From: Corynebacterium confusum
GTDB lineage: Bacteria > Actinomycetota > Actinomycetes > Mycobacteriales > Mycobacteriaceae
Length of the DNA: 64,000 nucleotides
Assembly: GCF_030408715.1 (NCBI RefSeq)
Contig: NZ_CP047202.1
Coordinates: 1,965,907 to 2,029,906 of the forward strand
Reading direction: 5' to 3'
The notes beneath the pieces were generated by a model that saw only the letters and a program-made list of their open reading frames with translations, made no database searches and was not told where the DNA came from. Shown in pieces: positions 47,944 through 54,712 of this stretch; within the stretch, counting starts at the first letter, position 1, and each line of letters opens with the position of its first letter. Both the position numbers and the translations under genes were made by a program.

Positions 47944-48176
47944 GCGCGGCCTTTCTGTTTTCGGGGAATTCTATTGCACCGGTCAGCTTTCAGTCTGACA
48001 CATTCGCCGCCGATGCGCGAGGGGTCCCCAGCGCGAACAGCGCGCACGACACGCAGCCGTGGATGTGGGATCGTGACCGGCCTGCGACCTTCCCCTCCCC
48101 GGATGGGGGGGGTAAGCCCGAACACCTTTCCGGAGGGTTTTTCTCATTTTTGCCCCGCCGGTTAACCGCGCCCGCG
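47944..48176. other. Gap between SPFH gene and opp remnant
   Basis: 233 bases with no plausible gene. It should hold the leftward promoter of the SPFH gene. CCTTTCCGGAGGGTTTTT (near 48124-48142) is hairpin-like and may be an old terminator. Confidence 0.4.
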
Positions 48177-49039
48177 ATGGTCAAATACATCATCAAAAAG
48201 ACCGCCAGTTGGTTAATCGTGATCTTCCTGGCCACCAACATCGCCTACCTGTTGGCGTCAGTCTTTTTGGATCCGCGCTCCAACTACGCCGGGCGGCGCC
48301 CGCCGCTCAGCCAGGAACAAATCAGCCACATCCTGCAGCCGCTCAACCTAGACCCGGAGACCCCTCTACTGGAGCGCTGGTGGACGTGGCTCACCGGCGT
48401 GGTGCTGCGCTGGGACTAGGGCGCTTCCCTGCTCGGGGCGGAAGGGTTTTCCCCAAACTCATCGACACCGCCCAACACTTGGTTCTGCCTACCATTTCGT
48501 TGGTCATTATCAGTTACACCGGCTACCACATGATGCAGCGTACACTGCTGCTGGATAACCTGTCCGCAGACTACGTGCTCACCGGCGACGACCCGGGGAT
48601 TAAGGCGGAGGCTTCCGCCACCCAGAAGATGCTGGCGGACGTCGGCATCAAGCTGGACGTCGAGGAGCGCCCGTCGGCGGACTTCTCCAAGATTGTCACC
48701 AAGCGCGACTTCGACATCTTCCCGATGGCCTTCGCGTCCTCCTCCCCGCTGGGCGTGGCCAGCTTCAACCAGATCTACGCCTCGGACTCGGAGCTGAACA
48801 AGTCCGGCACCGGTACCCCGGAGATGGACAAGAAGATCGAGGAGCTGGGCCAGATCGCGGACGCGGACGAACAGACGCAGAAGGCCAATGAGCTGGAGAA
48901 GGAGGCGCTGTCCACCTTCGGCATCATGCCGCTGATGAACGGCCCGCAGATGGTGGCCACCAACCCGAAGCTGGCCAACTTCGGCGCCAAGTCCCTGGGC
49001 AGCGTCGAGGTCGAAAACGTCGGCTACGTCAAGGAATAG
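48177..49039 (+). pseudogene. Remnant of an oppBCDA peptide importer operon
   Basis: Three pieces in a row. First, from ATG 48177 to a TAG at 48418, the N-terminus of an OppB permease (MVKYIIKKTASWLIVIFLAT). Second, in another frame from about 48454, an OppB middle piece (DTAQHLVLPTISLVIISYTG, then YHMMQRTLLLDNLSADYVL). Third, with no stop, the C-terminal 150 residues of an OppA binding protein (GDDPGIKAEASATQKMLADV through ENVGYVKE). The order fits two deletions in a B-C-D-A operon like the mycobacterial one. OppC and OppD are gone. Confidence 0.8.
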
Positions 49040-49063
49040 CCGCCTAAAGCCTGCCAAACGCCG

Positions 49064-49110
49064 AACACCCGCCCCTGCCTCCTAGTCTCTAGGAGGCAGG
49101 GGCGGGTGTT
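49064..49110. terminator. Strong bidirectional terminator
   Basis: A 20-bp perfect stem (AACACCCGCCCCTGCCTCCT and its complement) with a 7-base loop AGTCTCT, in the tail-to-tail gap of the opp remnant and pflA. Short TGTTTG and TGTTCG tails stand on either side. Confidence 0.8.
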
Positions 49111-49127
49111 TGCGGGTTATAAGGGAA

Positions 49128-49997
49128 TTAGTAGACCGTGAAGCCTTTGGCTCGGAAGACGTCGCGGATAGCTTCGACATCCTCTGCAGCCGGGGGCTTA
49201 GTGTCTTCCAGTGTGTAGGGATAACCCAGCTCACGCCACTTGTCGGCGCCCATGTTATGGAACGGAAGGACCTCAACGCGTTCCACGTTGTTGGGCCACC
49301 GTGCCACGATATTGGCGACGTTCTGGACGTTTTCCGGGCTATCCGTCAGGTCAGGGACGACCACAAAGCGGATCCACACCGGCTTGTTTGCCGCCGCGAG
49401 CCGGTCACCGAAATCGATGGTCGGCTGCAGCTCACGCCGCGTGACTTCTTTGTAAGTCTTCTCATCGCCTGCTTTGACATCCAGCAGAACCAGGTCAATG
49501 TTGTCCAGGTCCTCGTCGCGCACGCGCGCCCCGAGGAAACCGGAGGTATCGATGGTGGTGTGGATGCCGGCATCGTGCACTTCCTTGAGCACCCGGCGGG
49601 TGAACGCCGTCTGGAACAGCGCCTCCCCGCCCGAGATGGTCAGCCCGCCATTGGAGGCGTCGAAGATGGGCTTGTAGCGCTTGACGCGCTTGACCACGTC
49701 TTCGACCTTCTCCAGGGAGCCGGTCTTCATCTCGAAGGTGTCAGGATTGTGGCAGTACTGGCAGCGGAGCGGGCAACCGGACATGAACATCGTCATGCGG
49801 GTACCCGGCCCGTCGACCGAGGTCACCAGTTCCCACGAGTGCACCAAGCCGACGTCGCCAGTGCGGCGGGCTTCCATGAGCTCGGGGCGGGTGATTTGGT
49901 CGAGTTCGTTGTCCCCACCCAGGCCCGCGGCGACGCCGCGAACCTTTTCGCCTTCTTCTGGTTGGAGGGTAACAACACCAGTAACGCCATCAGCCAT
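49128..49997 (-). CDS. pflA: Pyruvate formate-lyase activating enzyme (radical SAM)
   Basis: A 289-aa radical SAM enzyme. The 4Fe-4S motif C-x3-C-x2-C is MSGCPLRCQYCHNPDTF (about residue 80), preceded by VTSVDGPGTRMTMF and followed by GGLTISGGEALFQ. It abstracts H from the active Gly of pyruvate formate-lyase. Its ATG lies 6 bases after the stop of the glycyl-radical gene. An N-terminal extension of about 50 residues (MADGVTGVVTLQPEEGEKVR) precedes the core. Confidence 0.93.
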   Translation of the reverse strand: MADGVTGVVTLQPEEGEKVRGVAAGLGGDNELDQITRPELMEARRTGDVGLVHSWELVTSVDGPGTRMTMFMSGCPLRCQYCHNPDTFEMKTGSLEKVEDVVKRVKRYKPIFDASNGGLTISGGEALFQTAFTRRVLKEVHDAGIHTTIDTSGFLGARVRDEDLDNIDLVLLDVKAGDEKTYKEVTRRELQPTIDFGDRLAAANKPVWIRFVVVPDLTDSPENVQNVANIVARWPNNVERVEVLPFHNMGADKWRELGYPYTLEDTKPPAAEDVEAIRDVFRAKGFTVY

Positions 49998-50003
49998 GGT
50001 TGA

Positions 50004-50255
50004 TTACGAACCCTGGTGGAAGGTACGGGAGATGACGTCCAGCTGCTGTTCCTTGGTCAGCTTGACGAAGTTGACGGCGTAGCCGGAGACGCGAACGGTC
50101 AGGTTCGGGTACTTCTCCGGGTGCTCAACTGCGTCCTCCAGAGTGGACTTGTCCAGGACGTTGATGTTGGCGTGGTACAGGCCGGAGTCCATGTTGTGCT
50201 CTGCACGACGGGACTTCATTGCCTCGAGACGCTGATCGAAAGTCGGGGTTGCCAT
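50004..50255 (-). CDS. grcA: Stand-alone glycyl-radical domain (GrcA/YfiD-like), radical subunit of split PFL
   Basis: An 83-aa protein. Residues 25-83 match the last 60 residues of pyruvate formate-lyase, including [20 protein letters not shown] with the radical Gly at position 58 and the end [10 protein letters not shown]. Residues 1-24 ([20 protein letters not shown]) are not PFL. It has its own AGAAGGAG site and lies between the truncated pfl and pflA genes, 39 bases after pfl. E. coli YfiD/GrcA, a similar small protein, repairs oxygen-cleaved PFL. Here the large subunit has no radical domain of its own, so this protein should be an obligate subunit. Confidence 0.9.
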
Positions 50256-50294
50256 GATGATTTCTCCTTCTACGAGATTGGGTTTTGGGTGGTC

Positions 50295-52382
50295 TTACTT
50301 GTCCATGATGAAGCCGGCGTCCAGGACGCCCACCAGGTTGGTGATGCGCTCATCCGGGGTACGGCCCAGACCAGACGGCGTGATGGTGTTGGTCAGCGAG
50401 ATGCCGTCCAACGCATCCTTGTAGTCCAGCTTACCGACGGACAGCATGGATGCGACCATGCCGTGGCTGTCGGCGCCGTTCTCCGGGTTTGCGCCCGGCG
50501 CGAACGGGGTGCCGGCCTCGTGGCCTGACGGGAAGGCGCCAGTGGCCTTGCCGTAGACCACGTTCGAGGTGATGGTCAGCACCGACTGGGTCGGGATGGC
50601 GTTGCGGTACATCGGGATGGCCTTAATCTTTTCCATCACGGTGTGGACGATGGTTGCGGCGATGTCGTCGGCGCGGTCGTCGTCGTTGCCGTAGACCGGG
50701 AAATCGCCCTCGGTCTTGTAGTCCACAATCAGGCCGGTCTCATCCCGGACCGGGGTGACCTTGGCGTACTTGATGGCGGACAGGGAGTCGGCCACGATCG
50801 ACAGGCCGGCGATACCGCAGCCCATCGAGCGCACGATGTCGGAGTCGTGCAGAGCCATCTCAATGGACTCGTAGGCGTACTTGTCGTGGCTGTAGTGGAT
50901 GATGTTCAGGGCCTCGACGTAGGTGCCGACGACCCAGTCGAGCATCTCCTCGTACTTCTGCCAGACCTCATCGAAGTCCAGCGGCTCGTCGCCCTGGATG
51001 GCGTCGTAGCCTTCCACGACCTGCTTGCCGCTGACCTCGTCGCGGCCGCCGTTGATGGCATACAGCAGGGCCTTGGCGGCGTTGACGCGGGCGCCGAAGA
51101 ACTGCATCTGCTTGCCGACGCGCATCGGGGACACGCAGCACGCGATGGCGGCGTCGTCGCCCCACTGCTCACGAATCTGGCGGTCGGACTCGTACTGGAT
51201 GGACGAGGTCTCAATCGAGATGTGGGCGCAGAATTCCTTGTAGCCTTCCGGCAGCTTCGGGTCCCAGAAGATGGTGATGTTCGGTTCCGGGGACGGCCCC
51301 AGGTTAATCAGGGTCTGGAGCAGGCGGAAGGAGGTCTTGGTGACCAGCGGGCGACCGTCGTCGCCGAAGCCGGCGTCGGACCAGGTGGCCCAGTACGGGT
51401 CGCCGGAGAAGATCTGGTCGTAGTCCTCGGTGCGCAGGAAGCGGACGATGCGCAGCTTCATAACCAGCGCGTCGATGATTTCCTGGGCGTCTTCCTCGGT
51501 GATGGTGCCGTTGGCCAGGTCGCGCTCGAAGTAGCAGTCGAAGAACGCGGACAGGCGGCCGATGGACATGGCGGCGCCGTCCTGGGACTTGATGGAGCCC
51601 AGGTAGCCGAAGTAGGTCCACTGGACAGCTTCCTGCGCGGTGGTAGCCGGACCGGAGATGTCGAAGCCGTACTGCTCGGCCATGACCTTCAGCTTCTTCA
51701 GAGCCTTGATCTGCTCGGAGTGCTCCTCACGGAAGCGAGCCCAGTGCTCGGAGAAGCCGGCATCAGCGACGGAGTCGCGAGAAGCCTGCTTTTCCTCGAT
51801 GAGGTAGTCGACACCGTAGAGGGCCACGCGGCGGTAGTCGCCGATGATGCGGCCACGGCCGTAGGCGTCCGGCAGGCCCGTGATGATGTGGGAGGAACGG
51901 GCAGCGCGGATGCGCGGGGTATAGATGTCGAAGACGCCGTCGTTGTGGGTCTTGCGGTAGCGGGTGAAGATCTTCTCGACCTCCGGGTCCACTTCCTTGC
52001 CCGCTTCCTTGATGGCCTGCTTGACCATGCGCCAGCCGCCGAACGGCATCATGGCGCGCTTCAGCGGGGTATCGGTCTGCAGACCGACGATGACGTTGTC
52101 ATCCTCGGAGATGTAGCCGGCCGGGAAGGCGTCGATGTCGGACGGGGTGTGGGTGTCGACGTCGAAGACGCGCTGCTTGCGCTCGACGGACAGGTACTTG
52201 TCTTCCAGGTGCTCGAAGGTGCGCTTGGTCTTTTCGGTCGGGCCGGCCAGGAAGGACGAATCCCCTTCGTAGGGGGTGTAGTTGCGCTGGATGAAGTCGC
52301 GCACGTCGATGCCCTCAGCCCATGGGCCGGTCTCAAAACCCTTCCAGGCATCAAACTTGAGGTCTTGGGTTGCGGTGGTCAC
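50295..52382 (-). CDS. pflB: Pyruvate formate-lyase core lacking the glycyl-radical domain
   Basis: A 695-aa protein that would convert pyruvate and CoA to acetyl-CoA and formate. The catalytic cysteines are Cys415-Cys416 (AIACCVSPMRVGKQMQFFGA), close to E. coli 418/419. The protein ends TNLVGVLDAGFIMDK, where E. coli PFL continues for about 60 residues with the linker and radical loop. The stop codon is clean. The missing part is encoded in the next gene. GTG 52382 is the start (VTTATQDLKFDAWKGF), with AGAAGGGAG upstream. Confidence 0.92.
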   Translation of the reverse strand: MTTATQDLKFDAWKGFETGPWAEGIDVRDFIQRNYTPYEGDSSFLAGPTEKTKRTFEHLEDKYLSVERKQRVFDVDTHTPSDIDAFPAGYISEDDNVIVGLQTDTPLKRAMMPFGGWRMVKQAIKEAGKEVDPEVEKIFTRYRKTHNDGVFDIYTPRIRAARSSHIITGLPDAYGRGRIIGDYRRVALYGVDYLIEEKQASRDSVADAGFSEHWARFREEHSEQIKALKKLKVMAEQYGFDISGPATTAQEAVQWTYFGYLGSIKSQDGAAMSIGRLSAFFDCYFERDLANGTITEEDAQEIIDALVMKLRIVRFLRTEDYDQIFSGDPYWATWSDAGFGDDGRPLVTKTSFRLLQTLINLGPSPEPNITIFWDPKLPEGYKEFCAHISIETSSIQYESDRQIREQWGDDAAIACCVSPMRVGKQMQFFGARVNAAKALLYAINGGRDEVSGKQVVEGYDAIQGDEPLDFDEVWQKYEEMLDWVVGTYVEALNIIHYSHDKYAYESIEMALHDSDIVRSMGCGIAGLSIVADSLSAIKYAKVTPVRDETGLIVDYKTEGDFPVYGNDDDRADDIAATIVHTVMEKIKAIPMYRNAIPTQSVLTITSNVVYGKATGAFPSGHEAGTPFAPGANPENGADSHGMVASMLSVGKLDYKDALDGISLTNTITPSGLGRTPDERITNLVGVLDAGFIMDK

Positions 52383-52783
52383 TATCGGTGACTCCCTTCT
52401 GTATCTATAAGTTCCCTTATACCGTGGGGCGCGCTCGCCATTCCCAATTCCCAATCCATCTTGTAACCTGTATTTTTCTCGGGTTTCAATGGTCTTGAGC
52501 TTCTCTAGCGGCAAGCCCCGCTGAGTCCCAGTGTAGGGGCTTGTTAGGTGGTTACTCCAACCCAGAAAGTGTGCAATAGCCCACACGTCTGATGTCTGAC
52601 TCTAGTGCGCTGCTCAGGCATTTTAAGTAAAACGTCCGTCCGGTTTAAGCTTCGGGTGGGCGCCAGCTTTCTGGTCATAACCGGAACGTTTTGCTGCGGT
52701 TTTCCCGAATTCTGCGCCACCCTTCTACGCTTAGAGAGTACGAATTCAACCGTTTTTTGCTTCGCCCCACCCTGGAGGACTTC
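52383..52783. other. Divergent promoter region between pflB and NCS2 permease
   Basis: 401 bases without a plausible gene. On the minus strand it holds a TATAAG -10-like box inside a palindrome (52406-52421) and a tandem ATTGGGAATTGGGAAT direct repeat (about 52442-52458). On the plus strand CTGGAGG precedes the GTG of the permease gene. Confidence 0.55.
52406..52421. promoter_or_regulatory. Palindrome over the pfl promoter
   Basis: TATAAG-TTCC-CTTATA has perfect 6-bp arms, 24-39 bases upstream of the pflB GTG, and one arm is a good -10 hexamer for that gene. A repressor or redox regulator could bind here. The direct repeat at about 52442 is a second possible site. Confidence 0.45.
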
Positions 52784-54712
52784 GTGGCTGCCCAAACTAG
52801 CACCCAGCCCAAGCGCACACACCCCGTCGACCAAGTTCCGGCCCCCGGCAAACTCGCCGCTTTAGGCCTGCAGCACGTGCTCGCCTTCTACGCCGGGGCG
52901 GTCATCGTCCCGCTGCTGATCGCGGGTTCCCTGAACCTGGATACCGCCACCACCATCCACCTCATCAACGCGGATCTGCTCACCTGCGGTATCGCGACCA
53001 TCATCCAGTCGGTGGGCATCGGCAAGCATGTGGGCGTGCGGCTGCCCATCGTGCAGGGCGTGACCACCACGGCCGTCGCGCCGATCATCGCCATCGGCCT
53101 AGGCGCGACCGACGGGCAGGGCGGGGTGGCCTCCCTGCCGGTCATCTACGGCTCCATCATCGTCGCGGGCCTGTTCACCTTCTTCATGGCGCCGCTGTTC
53201 GGCCGCTTCCTCCGCTACTTCCCGCCGGTGGTCACCGGCACCGTCCTGCTCGTAATGGGCACCTCCCTGCTGGCCGTGTCCGCCAACGACTTCACCAACT
53301 ACGCGGAGGGCCAGCCCGCGGCCCGCGACCTCTGGTACGGCTTCGGCACCCTGGCCGTCATCGTCCTAGTCCAGCGCTTCTTCCGCGGCTTCCTGGGCAC
53401 CCTGTCGGTGCTCCTGGGCCTGGTGCTGGGCACGGGCGTGGCCCTACTGGCCGGCGACGCGAGCTTCGCCGAGGTCGGCGAGGCCGACGCCTTCGGCATT
53501 ACGACGCCGTTTTATTTCGGCCTGCCGCAGTTCGACCTGGTCGCCATCTTCTCCCTGCTGATCGTCATGGTCATCACCATGGTGGAGACCACCGGCGACG
53601 TCTTCGCCACCGGCGAGATCGTCAAAAAGCGCATCCGCCGCGCCGACGTCCAGGCCGCGCTGCGCGCCGACGGCGTGTCCACCTTCATCGGCGGCGTGAT
53701 GAACTCCTTCCCCTACACCTGCTTCGCCCAGAACGTCGGCCTGGTCCGCCTGACCGGCGTGAAATCCCGCTGGGTGGCCGTGTCCGCCGCGGGCTTCATG
53801 ATCGTGCTGGGCCTGCTGCCCAAGGCCGGGGCCGTGGTCGCGGCGATCCCGGCGCCGGTGCTGGGCGGGGCATCGTTAGCGCTGTTCGCCAACGTCGCCT
53901 GGGTGGGCCTGCAGACCATCGCCAAGGCCGACATCAACGACGGGCGCAACGCCGTCATCGTGACCACCGCGCTGGGGCTGGCCATGCTCGTGACCTTCAA
54001 GCCGGAGATCGCGGCGGTCTTCCCGGAGTGGTCGCAGACCTTCGTCTCCTCGGGCATGTCCATCGGCGCCATCACCGCCATCGGGCTGAACCTGTTGTTC
54101 TTCCACACGGGCCACTCCCGCGGCGGGGACGTCGCCCGCACCGGCGGCACGGGCGTTTCACTGGACGAGCTCAACGCCATGGACCGCGACGACTTCGTGG
54201 CGACCCTGCGCCCGTTGTTTAACAACGAGACCTGGCCGCTGGAAACCACCTGGGAGTCCCGCCCCTTCGACAACGTCGGGCAGCTGCGCGAGGCCATCCA
54301 GGTCGCTGTCCTCACTGCCGACGTCGAGCGCCGCGAACAGCTCATCCACGACTACCCCGCCATGGACGAGCTCCTGCTGGCCGACGACGAGGGCGCCGCG
54401 GCGATCTCCGCCGACCGCGGCTCGCTCGGCCTCGGTGAGCTCGACGACGTCCAGACCGAGCAGATCACCCAGCTGTCCGCCGCCTACCGCGAGCGCTTCG
54501 GCATGCCGTTTGTGGCCTACCTGGACACCAACGACACCTTCGAGCGCGTGCTGGACGCCGGCGTGCGCCGCCTGGCCAACTCCGAACCCCAGGAGCACCG
54601 CGTGGCGCTGAGCGAAATCGTCGAAATCGCCGGCGATCGCTTCGATATCCTGCTGGCCGACGCCAACCCCATTCGCTCGGCGTGGGACCGGAAATTCACC
54701 GAAGTCGAGTAG
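52784..54712 (+). CDS. NCS2 purine permease fused to a UraD-like (OHCU decarboxylase) domain
   Basis: A 642-aa protein. Residues 20-440 form a uracil-xanthine permease with about 12-14 TM helices (LGLQHVLAFYAGAVIVPLLI; the NCS2 motif around NSFPYTCFAQNVGLVRLTGV). From about residue 460 a soluble domain resembles 2-oxo-4-hydroxy-4-carboxy-5-ureidoimidazoline decarboxylase (LNAMDRDDFVATLRPLF; SAAYRERFGMPFV; AVRRLANSEPQE-like end). The usual LIRAHPDL motif with the catalytic His reads LIHDYPAM, so Tyr replaces it. Likely substrate: urate or xanthine. GTG 52784 with CTGGAGG site. Confidence 0.85.
   Translation: MAAQTSTQPKRTHPVDQVPAPGKLAALGLQHVLAFYAGAVIVPLLIAGSLNLDTATTIHLINADLLTCGIATIIQSVGIGKHVGVRLPIVQGVTTTAVAPIIAIGLGATDGQGGVASLPVIYGSIIVAGLFTFFMAPLFGRFLRYFPPVVTGTVLLVMGTSLLAVSANDFTNYAEGQPAARDLWYGFGTLAVIVLVQRFFRGFLGTLSVLLGLVLGTGVALLAGDASFAEVGEADAFGITTPFYFGLPQFDLVAIFSLLIVMVITMVETTGDVFATGEIVKKRIRRADVQAALRADGVSTFIGGVMNSFPYTCFAQNVGLVRLTGVKSRWVAVSAAGFMIVLGLLPKAGAVVAAIPAPVLGGASLALFANVAWVGLQTIAKADINDGRNAVIVTTALGLAMLVTFKPEIAAVFPEWSQTFVSSGMSIGAITAIGLNLLFFHTGHSRGGDVARTGGTGVSLDELNAMDRDDFVATLRPLFNNETWPLETTWESRPFDNVGQLREAIQVAVLTADVERREQLIHDYPAMDELLLADDEGAAAISADRGSLGLGELDDVQTEQITQLSAAYRERFGMPFVAYLDTNDTFERVLDAGVRRLANSEPQEHRVALSEIVEIAGDRFDILLADANPIRSAWDRKFTEVE

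Follow-up and report, generated by a model that had tools for sequence, protein, structure and literature searches.

A two-chain pyruvate formate-lyase with a probable obligate radical subunit in Corynebacterium confusum and its relatives

We analysed a 64,000-nucleotide stretch of the Corynebacterium confusum genome (contig NZ_CP047202.1, positions 1,965,907 to 2,029,906; hereafter the window, with coordinates counted from its first letter). On its minus strand, the region 49128-52382 consists of three genes, which encode a large pyruvate formate-lyase (PFL) chain, a small glycyl-radical protein and the activating enzyme PflA. This locus is a two-chain PFL variant and not an ordinary member of the TIGR01255 family: the adjacent catalytic cysteines that define a PFL (Cys415-Cys416) are present on the large chain, whereas the radical glycine, normally part of the same polypeptide, is located on a separate protein of 83 residues. 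Very likely, the two proteins form a natural two-subunit PFL, in which an obligate separate radical subunit docks in the barrel of a catalytic body.

The pflB-like large gene (50295..52382, minus strand) starts with a GTG at 52382, preceded by AGAAGGGAG, and stops with a TAA at 50297-50295, so that the chain of 695 residues ends ahead of the glycyl-radical domain. Against TIGR01255 (formate C-acetyltransferase) it scored 1002.4 bits with a cut-off of 994.2, the match covering positions 1-678 only of the 744 in the profile. Pfam gave PF02901 with 670.6 bits and PF01228 at positions 1-65 only. Residues 11-691 aligned with residues 9-693 of E. coli PFL (1h16), and both the sequence and the alignment to the E. 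coli motif IACCVSPM place the codons of Cys415-Cys416 at 51135..51140. When the whole C. confusum genome was searched with PF02901 and PF01228, no second PFL was found; PF02901 matched once, and the single PF01228 domain is spread over both genes.

A spacer of 39 nucleotides (50256..50294) with the ribosome-binding site AAGGAG at 50264-50269 separates the large gene from the small one (50004..50255, minus strand; ATG at 50255, stop at 50006-50004), which carries the NCBI name GrcA2. Residues 5-82 of the small protein matched NF008341 (GrcA2) with 162.2 bits, above the cut-off of 145, while the scores for NF038360 (GrcA3; 101.7, cut-off 158) and for TIGR04365, the E. coli-type GrcA (86.2 bits, cut-off 170, profile positions 67-124 only), stayed below theirs. 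The protein covers positions 66-106 of PF01228, its residues 24-81 align with residues 700-757 of E. coli PFL, and 59 residues (23-81) align with residues 68-125 of E. coli GrcA (6owr). Gly58 in the motif RVSGYAV (codon 50082..50084) is aligned with the E. coli radical glycine. Six nucleotides past the small gene lies pflA (49128..49997, minus strand), a dedicated radical S-adenosylmethionine activase (TIGR02493, 306.5 bits, cut-off 231.75). A scan of 48900-52900 for the sigma-70 consensus, which may not fit this genus, revealed no promoter-like site for the small gene.

A preliminary description of the locus had proposed this layout, with a large chain that keeps the cysteine pair and stops near residue 695, a small gene with its own ribosome-binding site, a 39-base spacer and a new N-terminus, pflA next to it, and two parts that add up to one PFL; all of this was borne out. 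Its claim that the small gene encodes just the radical loop was correct for Gly58 and too narrow otherwise, as the protein also comprises the final strand of the barrel, the helix at the C-terminus and, at its other end, a conserved extension that is helical. This N-terminal extension (residues 1-24; 50184..50255) is a predicted helix, which we propose as a docking element. In an alignment of 31 of the 33 small subunits at hand (L049 and L051 were left out), it follows the pattern T-F/Y-x-x-R-x-x-x-M-K-x-x-R, with R9 and R17 invariant and T5, M13 and K14 conserved in at least 90%. Gly58 is invariant in all 31 and the radical core nearly so. In a structure model of a natural fusion of both genes (L042, see below), the extension corresponds to helix 727-740.

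Conservation of the arrangement was studied in a genus sample of 242 Corynebacterium genomes, near relatives included. Of these, 118 encode the small protein, in a single copy each, and 117 have PF02901, every one of which is among these 118; the genome without it is G127. A second full-length PFL, which the preliminary description listed as a refutation, was absent from C. confusum, and in the genus sample there is one PF02901 match per genome, which in G047 consists of two pieces on two contigs. Besides the C. confusum locus, 117 genus loci were fetched and sorted by a script into 114 split loci, one fused locus and two without a recognised large gene (L154 and L207). On reading, the latter two were also seen to have a large frame that ends at a stop, with the small gene standing apart behind it; the L207 contig starts inside the large gene. 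The expectation that other corynebacteria carry the same split was upheld, with the small gene separate in 116 of the 117 fetched loci (117 of 118 when C. confusum is counted), and of the 117 genus genomes that have a PFL gene, 116 encode a partner devoid of the radical domain. An activase motif is located downstream in all 114 split loci tested. As the set includes near relatives, these 114 loci are not independent cases. Fifteen further glycyl-radical matches in the genus cover positions 5-105 or 6-105 of PF01228. Eleven of them, with an RRLCGYLG tail, presumably belong to class III ribonucleotide reductases, and no extra PF02901 match was present in the genomes of the remaining four (L010, L012, L015 and L018).

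A full-length PFL gene at this locus, named in the preliminary description as a threat to its proposal, occurs in only one of the 118 genomes, that of Corynebacterium sp. Marseille-P4321 (genome G152; locus L155, identical to L042). Here, a tyrosine codon stands where the relatives L035, L047 and L054 end with ...PA-stop, the former spacer is translated into a linker, and the small gene's old ribosome site and its Met are retained internally. The distance from the cysteine pair to the radical motif is 361 residues, compared to 309-337 in the other fused genes compared, and because of this distance we read the gene, from its sequence, as a stop-loss re-fusion and not as the ancestral state.

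Outside the genus, a scan of species genomes returned at least 581 relatives. The best 80 were kept, a sample that leans to near kin, and two of these were dropped because they contained no long frame (L066) or the contig ended inside the gene (L068). Among the remaining relatives 32 were split and 46 fused. The split form was found in Corynebacterium, Actinomyces, Varibaculum, Arcanobacterium, Actinobaculum, Neoactinobaculum, Propionibacterium, Rothia, Brachybacterium, Helcobacillus and Pseudactinotalea, and the fused form in Bifidobacteriaceae, Cellulomonas and its kin, Microbacterium, Kocuria, Sanguibacter and the re-fused Corynebacterium. Varibaculum cambriense DSM 15806 (L036) carries a split PFL; the available part of a paper on an infant-gut genome of this species states that no evidence of a pyruvate formate-lyase was found (PMC4177395). 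Surveys that look for a full-length PFL may miss the split form.

The extension pattern with its invariant R9 and R17 is shared by these small proteins and speaks for one origin of the Corynebacterium-Actinomyces split. In a careful, unrooted tree of 50 large chains from those at hand, calculated without the radical domain, the fused Bifidobacteriaceae are nested among the split rows, next to Neoactinobaculum (100/99). The split label has to change four times along this tree, and starred branches force three of these changes. A single clade of the split rows was rejected in the approximately unbiased test (p-AU 5e-10), although an earlier quick tree had already shown the group; that tree, of 76 rows, agrees with the careful one. 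With the fused Cellulomonas-type genes placed outside, the simplest reading of these sequences would be one split, followed by re-fusions in Bifidobacteriaceae and in one Corynebacterium. A third re-fusion probably took place in Sanguibacter, the placement of which has weak support (83/44). Several independent splits would be the formal alternative to a single origin.

The separation of the radical domain appears, from the sequences, to have arisen a second time, in Collinsella-type bacteria. A survey of 396 genomes of the phylum with the GrcA2 model gave a match in 66 genomes, only two of which were above the cut-off, one being C. confusum itself. In 21 of the 30 loci returned (L122-L142), a free small gene adjoins a large gene without a radical domain. 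The cut point is earlier here: the large chain ends some way past ...ALGK and in many cases bears a Cys-rich tail; the small proteins begin shortly ahead of ...DNLV-M-D-Y...GGHHLNVNV. All 17 re-fetched loci were split, and their large chains form one clade (17 rows in the quick tree, three rows in the careful tree). The small protein of L130 reaches 167.4 with the GrcA3 model (NF038360, cut-off 158) and shares 95-96% identity with named proteins from Collinsella tanakaei and Enorma phocaeensis. The loci with this second split (L122-L142, L266-L277 and L283-L287) often have the Cys-rich tail on the large chain. Free glycyl-radical domains that resemble GrcA3 were also observed on three viral contigs, L144 (159, cut-off 158), L145 and L146; judged by eye, the neighbours in L146 resemble an anaerobic ribonucleotide reductase and its activase.

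How might the C. confusum enzyme work? The large protein would act as the catalytic body, with the Cys-Cys pair and the barrel for substrate and coenzyme A (CoA) on its 695 residues and no radical glycine. The 83-residue protein, which brings the last barrel strand, the Gly58 loop and the C-terminal helix, would be the radical subunit. It would form a complex with the large protein by docking into the barrel via strand, loop and helix, and the conserved N-terminal helix would replace the lost covalent link; PflA would make the radical on Gly58. As the large protein has no radical site of its own, the small protein should be an obligate subunit and not a spare. The preliminary description had also expected it to be needed for any activity; the comparisons support this reading, and none of the three refuting cases named there came about. 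That a radical protein can drive in trans a PFL lacking its own radical glycine is supported by published E. coli work, in which GrcA drives in vivo a PFL with its own glycine replaced. The C. confusum pair would convert pyruvate and CoA to acetyl-CoA and formate; an indirect observation is that Actinomyces naeslundii, which has the split PFL alone, secretes formate.

The oxygen-labile part of the enzyme is probably a subunit in its own right, which is essential and can be replaced, and the advantage may be that oxygen cleaves only this cheap part. In a wider scheme, which we put forward tentatively as only just short of evenly balanced, the radical end of PFL was separated at least twice into a disposable cofactor subunit, in Corynebacterium-Actinomyces together with a new docking helix and in the Collinsella type at a cut point that lies earlier, the body frequently having a Cys-rich tail. 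A durable catalytic body would then be re-armed by fresh radical subunits following oxygen exposure or wear. The two-chain form would be reversible, as in Bifidobacteriaceae, one Corynebacterium and probably Sanguibacter, and GrcA-type 'repair' proteins and split radical subunits would be two ends of one continuum.

The strongest competing explanation accepts a functional split and places its benefit elsewhere than in oxygen renewal: the split could be neutral, or serve the dosage or regulation of radical sites. We regard this as a serious contender, somewhat on the unlikely side. Collinsella belongs to the Coriobacteria, and Collinsella-type bacteria are strict anaerobes; a second split in such organisms weakens the oxygen-renewal benefit and indicates that splitting may have causes besides oxygen. 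The split was also undone at least twice, probably three times, including in Bifidobacteriaceae. On the other hand, the first split occurs mostly in facultative or aerotolerant organisms, which fits oxygen renewal.

Far less likely, the small protein could be a GrcA-type repair part that does no more than rescue oxygen-damaged PFL. Its score above the NF008341 cut-off, the name 'autonomous glycyl radical cofactor' given to its relatives and the 59 residues aligned to E. coli GrcA would agree with such a role. However, the E. coli GrcA equivalog model was missed by a wide gap (86 vs 170 bits), and a spare part requires a full-length PFL in the cell, of which C. confusum has none, its genome containing one truncated PFL only. 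Among the 242 genus genomes, a radical-bearing PFL is found only in the re-fused G152. With a partner that has no radical domain in all other PFL-bearing genomes of the genus sample, the repair explanation fails.

It is still less probable that both frames are joined in translation, by stop read-through or frameshifting, into one normal PFL. In C. confusum the large and small frames coincide, with one TAA and the spacer between them, so that from this sequence alone a split gene cannot be told from a gene with one stop, from read-through or from an error. In the 114 split genus loci, however, the frame of the small gene relative to the large one is 0, 1 or 2 in 47, 29 and 38 loci, respectively, the large-gene stops are TAA, TAG and TGA in 79, 26 and 9, and the spacers range from 3 to 287 nucleotides. 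A Shine-Dalgarno-like core precedes the small gene in 107 of the 114; in four loci, the script missed the N-terminal helix, which was present on reading (in three of them behind a GTG start), and their spacer and ribosome-site figures lie too far downstream. No stable hairpin was detected at the C. confusum junction, the fold of 86 nucleotides having a z-score of +1.59. These frames, spacers and ribosome sites exclude read-through and frameshifting and equally a sequencing error joining the frames, a concern of the preliminary description. In L249, L251 and L258, GAG directly follows the large-gene stop on its 3' side, so that TAGGAG contains both the stop and the ribosome site, and the small gene starts with a GTG 9 nucleotides past this stop, an arrangement that suggests tight translational coupling. 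A sequencing error or a decaying pseudogene is barely credible: a PFL without its glycine is inert and the G127 large gene is mostly missing, yet the small gene is separate in nearly all genus genomes that have it, the same split recurs in several families and both parts are under purifying selection.

Several further points weigh against an obligate radical subunit. G127 (L154) retains the small gene, but of the large one only residues 596-695 and a weak remnant were found; a deletion and an assembly fault are both possible. The ratio of nonsynonymous to synonymous polymorphism (pN/pS) is 0.49 for the extension and 0.38 for its helix, a constraint below that of the core. A. naeslundii DSM 43013 is presumably the same strain as NCTC 10301. 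The formate levels of A. naeslundii were called low by the authors who reported them. The in vivo result with E. coli GrcA was obtained with a full-length G734A chain and not with a truncated one. Furthermore, in the available part of the work on a truncated E. coli PFL (tPFL), its binding to YfiD (GrcA) was too weak to measure and the radical was 32-fold below that of cPFL with YfiD (PMC8683613); such a cut alone would be a poor solution unless the pair is adapted.

Glycyl-radical enzymes are viewed as carrying their radical on a single chain, and GrcA is seen as a stopgap for emergencies. The small protein is already in a database family, GrcA2, with a name that implies repair, and the arrangement is widespread and not peculiar to C. 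confusum. What is new is the partner without a radical domain, for which an obligate subunit is the best reading, in a state that is widespread, reversible and has arisen twice. In the open-access literature of PubMed Central (subscription papers and preprints were outside the search), 'GrcA2' was found nowhere, nor were expressions that denote a split PFL, a two-component PFL or a radical subunit, and the opening parts of abstracts contained no description of a natural split PFL. If the proposal is true, the PFL radical is always provided in trans in these organisms, which changes the reading of many 'GrcA2/GrcA3' genes. It also makes an old question testable, namely whether facultative bacteria can preserve their PFL during air exposure by having the oxygen-labile part as a separate piece.

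Both flanks of the locus carry plus-strand sequences. At 52691-54709, a frame of 673 residues contains a xanthine/uracil permease (PF00860, 54-439) followed by an OHCU decarboxylase (PF09349, 495-651), a fusion of a urate-type transporter with an enzyme of the late uric-acid pathway. At 48063-49036, two fragments of a peptide ABC transporter are left, one from the N-terminal part of a permease and one from a solute-binding protein. Both are below the Pfam cut-offs, and they lie in different frames; this looks like a decayed or deleted operon.

Compared to E. coli PflB (PFL 1), the fold, the catalytic Cys pair, the glycyl-radical sequence and the activase are common to both systems, and the large and small C. 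confusum proteins together cover residues 9-693 and 700-757. PflB is one chain, whereas C. confusum has, in place of residues 694-699, a short tail, a stop, the spacer and the new N-terminal extension of the second chain. E. coli GrcA/YfiD resembles the small protein as a small autonomous protein with radical strand, loop and helix that acts in trans on a PFL without its own radical. It serves a full-length PFL, whereas the C. confusum protein is a product of the pfl operon and lacks a full-length partner. According to the available part of the E. coli work, GrcA has a disordered N-terminus of 60 residues, in place of which the C. confusum protein has a short conserved helix (PMC8683613). The same source describes the engineered pair tPFL(1-695) and YfiD, which has nearly the same cut point and is active once radicalised; this laboratory construct binds and is activated poorly, whereas the C. 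confusum pair is natural, conserved and equipped with an added helix, and would represent an evolutionarily tuned counterpart of the engineered pair that failed to bind measurably.

Two recent structures named 'Formate acetyltransferase' fit the Collinsella-type split and not that of C. confusum, and neither was among the structure matches of the C. confusum small protein. In PDB 38la (687 residues) the last residue lies in ..NSLGKED, the Collinsella-type cut point, and 38lb (739 residues) continues, as far as aligned, as a tail unlike the radical domain. Apparently both are PFLs without a radical domain, either natural chains or constructs, which suggests that others study such enzymes. By score, the C. 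confusum small protein belongs to NCBIfam GrcA2 (NF008341) and the L130 Collinsella-type protein to GrcA3 (NF038360). Both names imply a repair cofactor, whereas the genomic partners without a radical domain point to the behaviour of a subunit.
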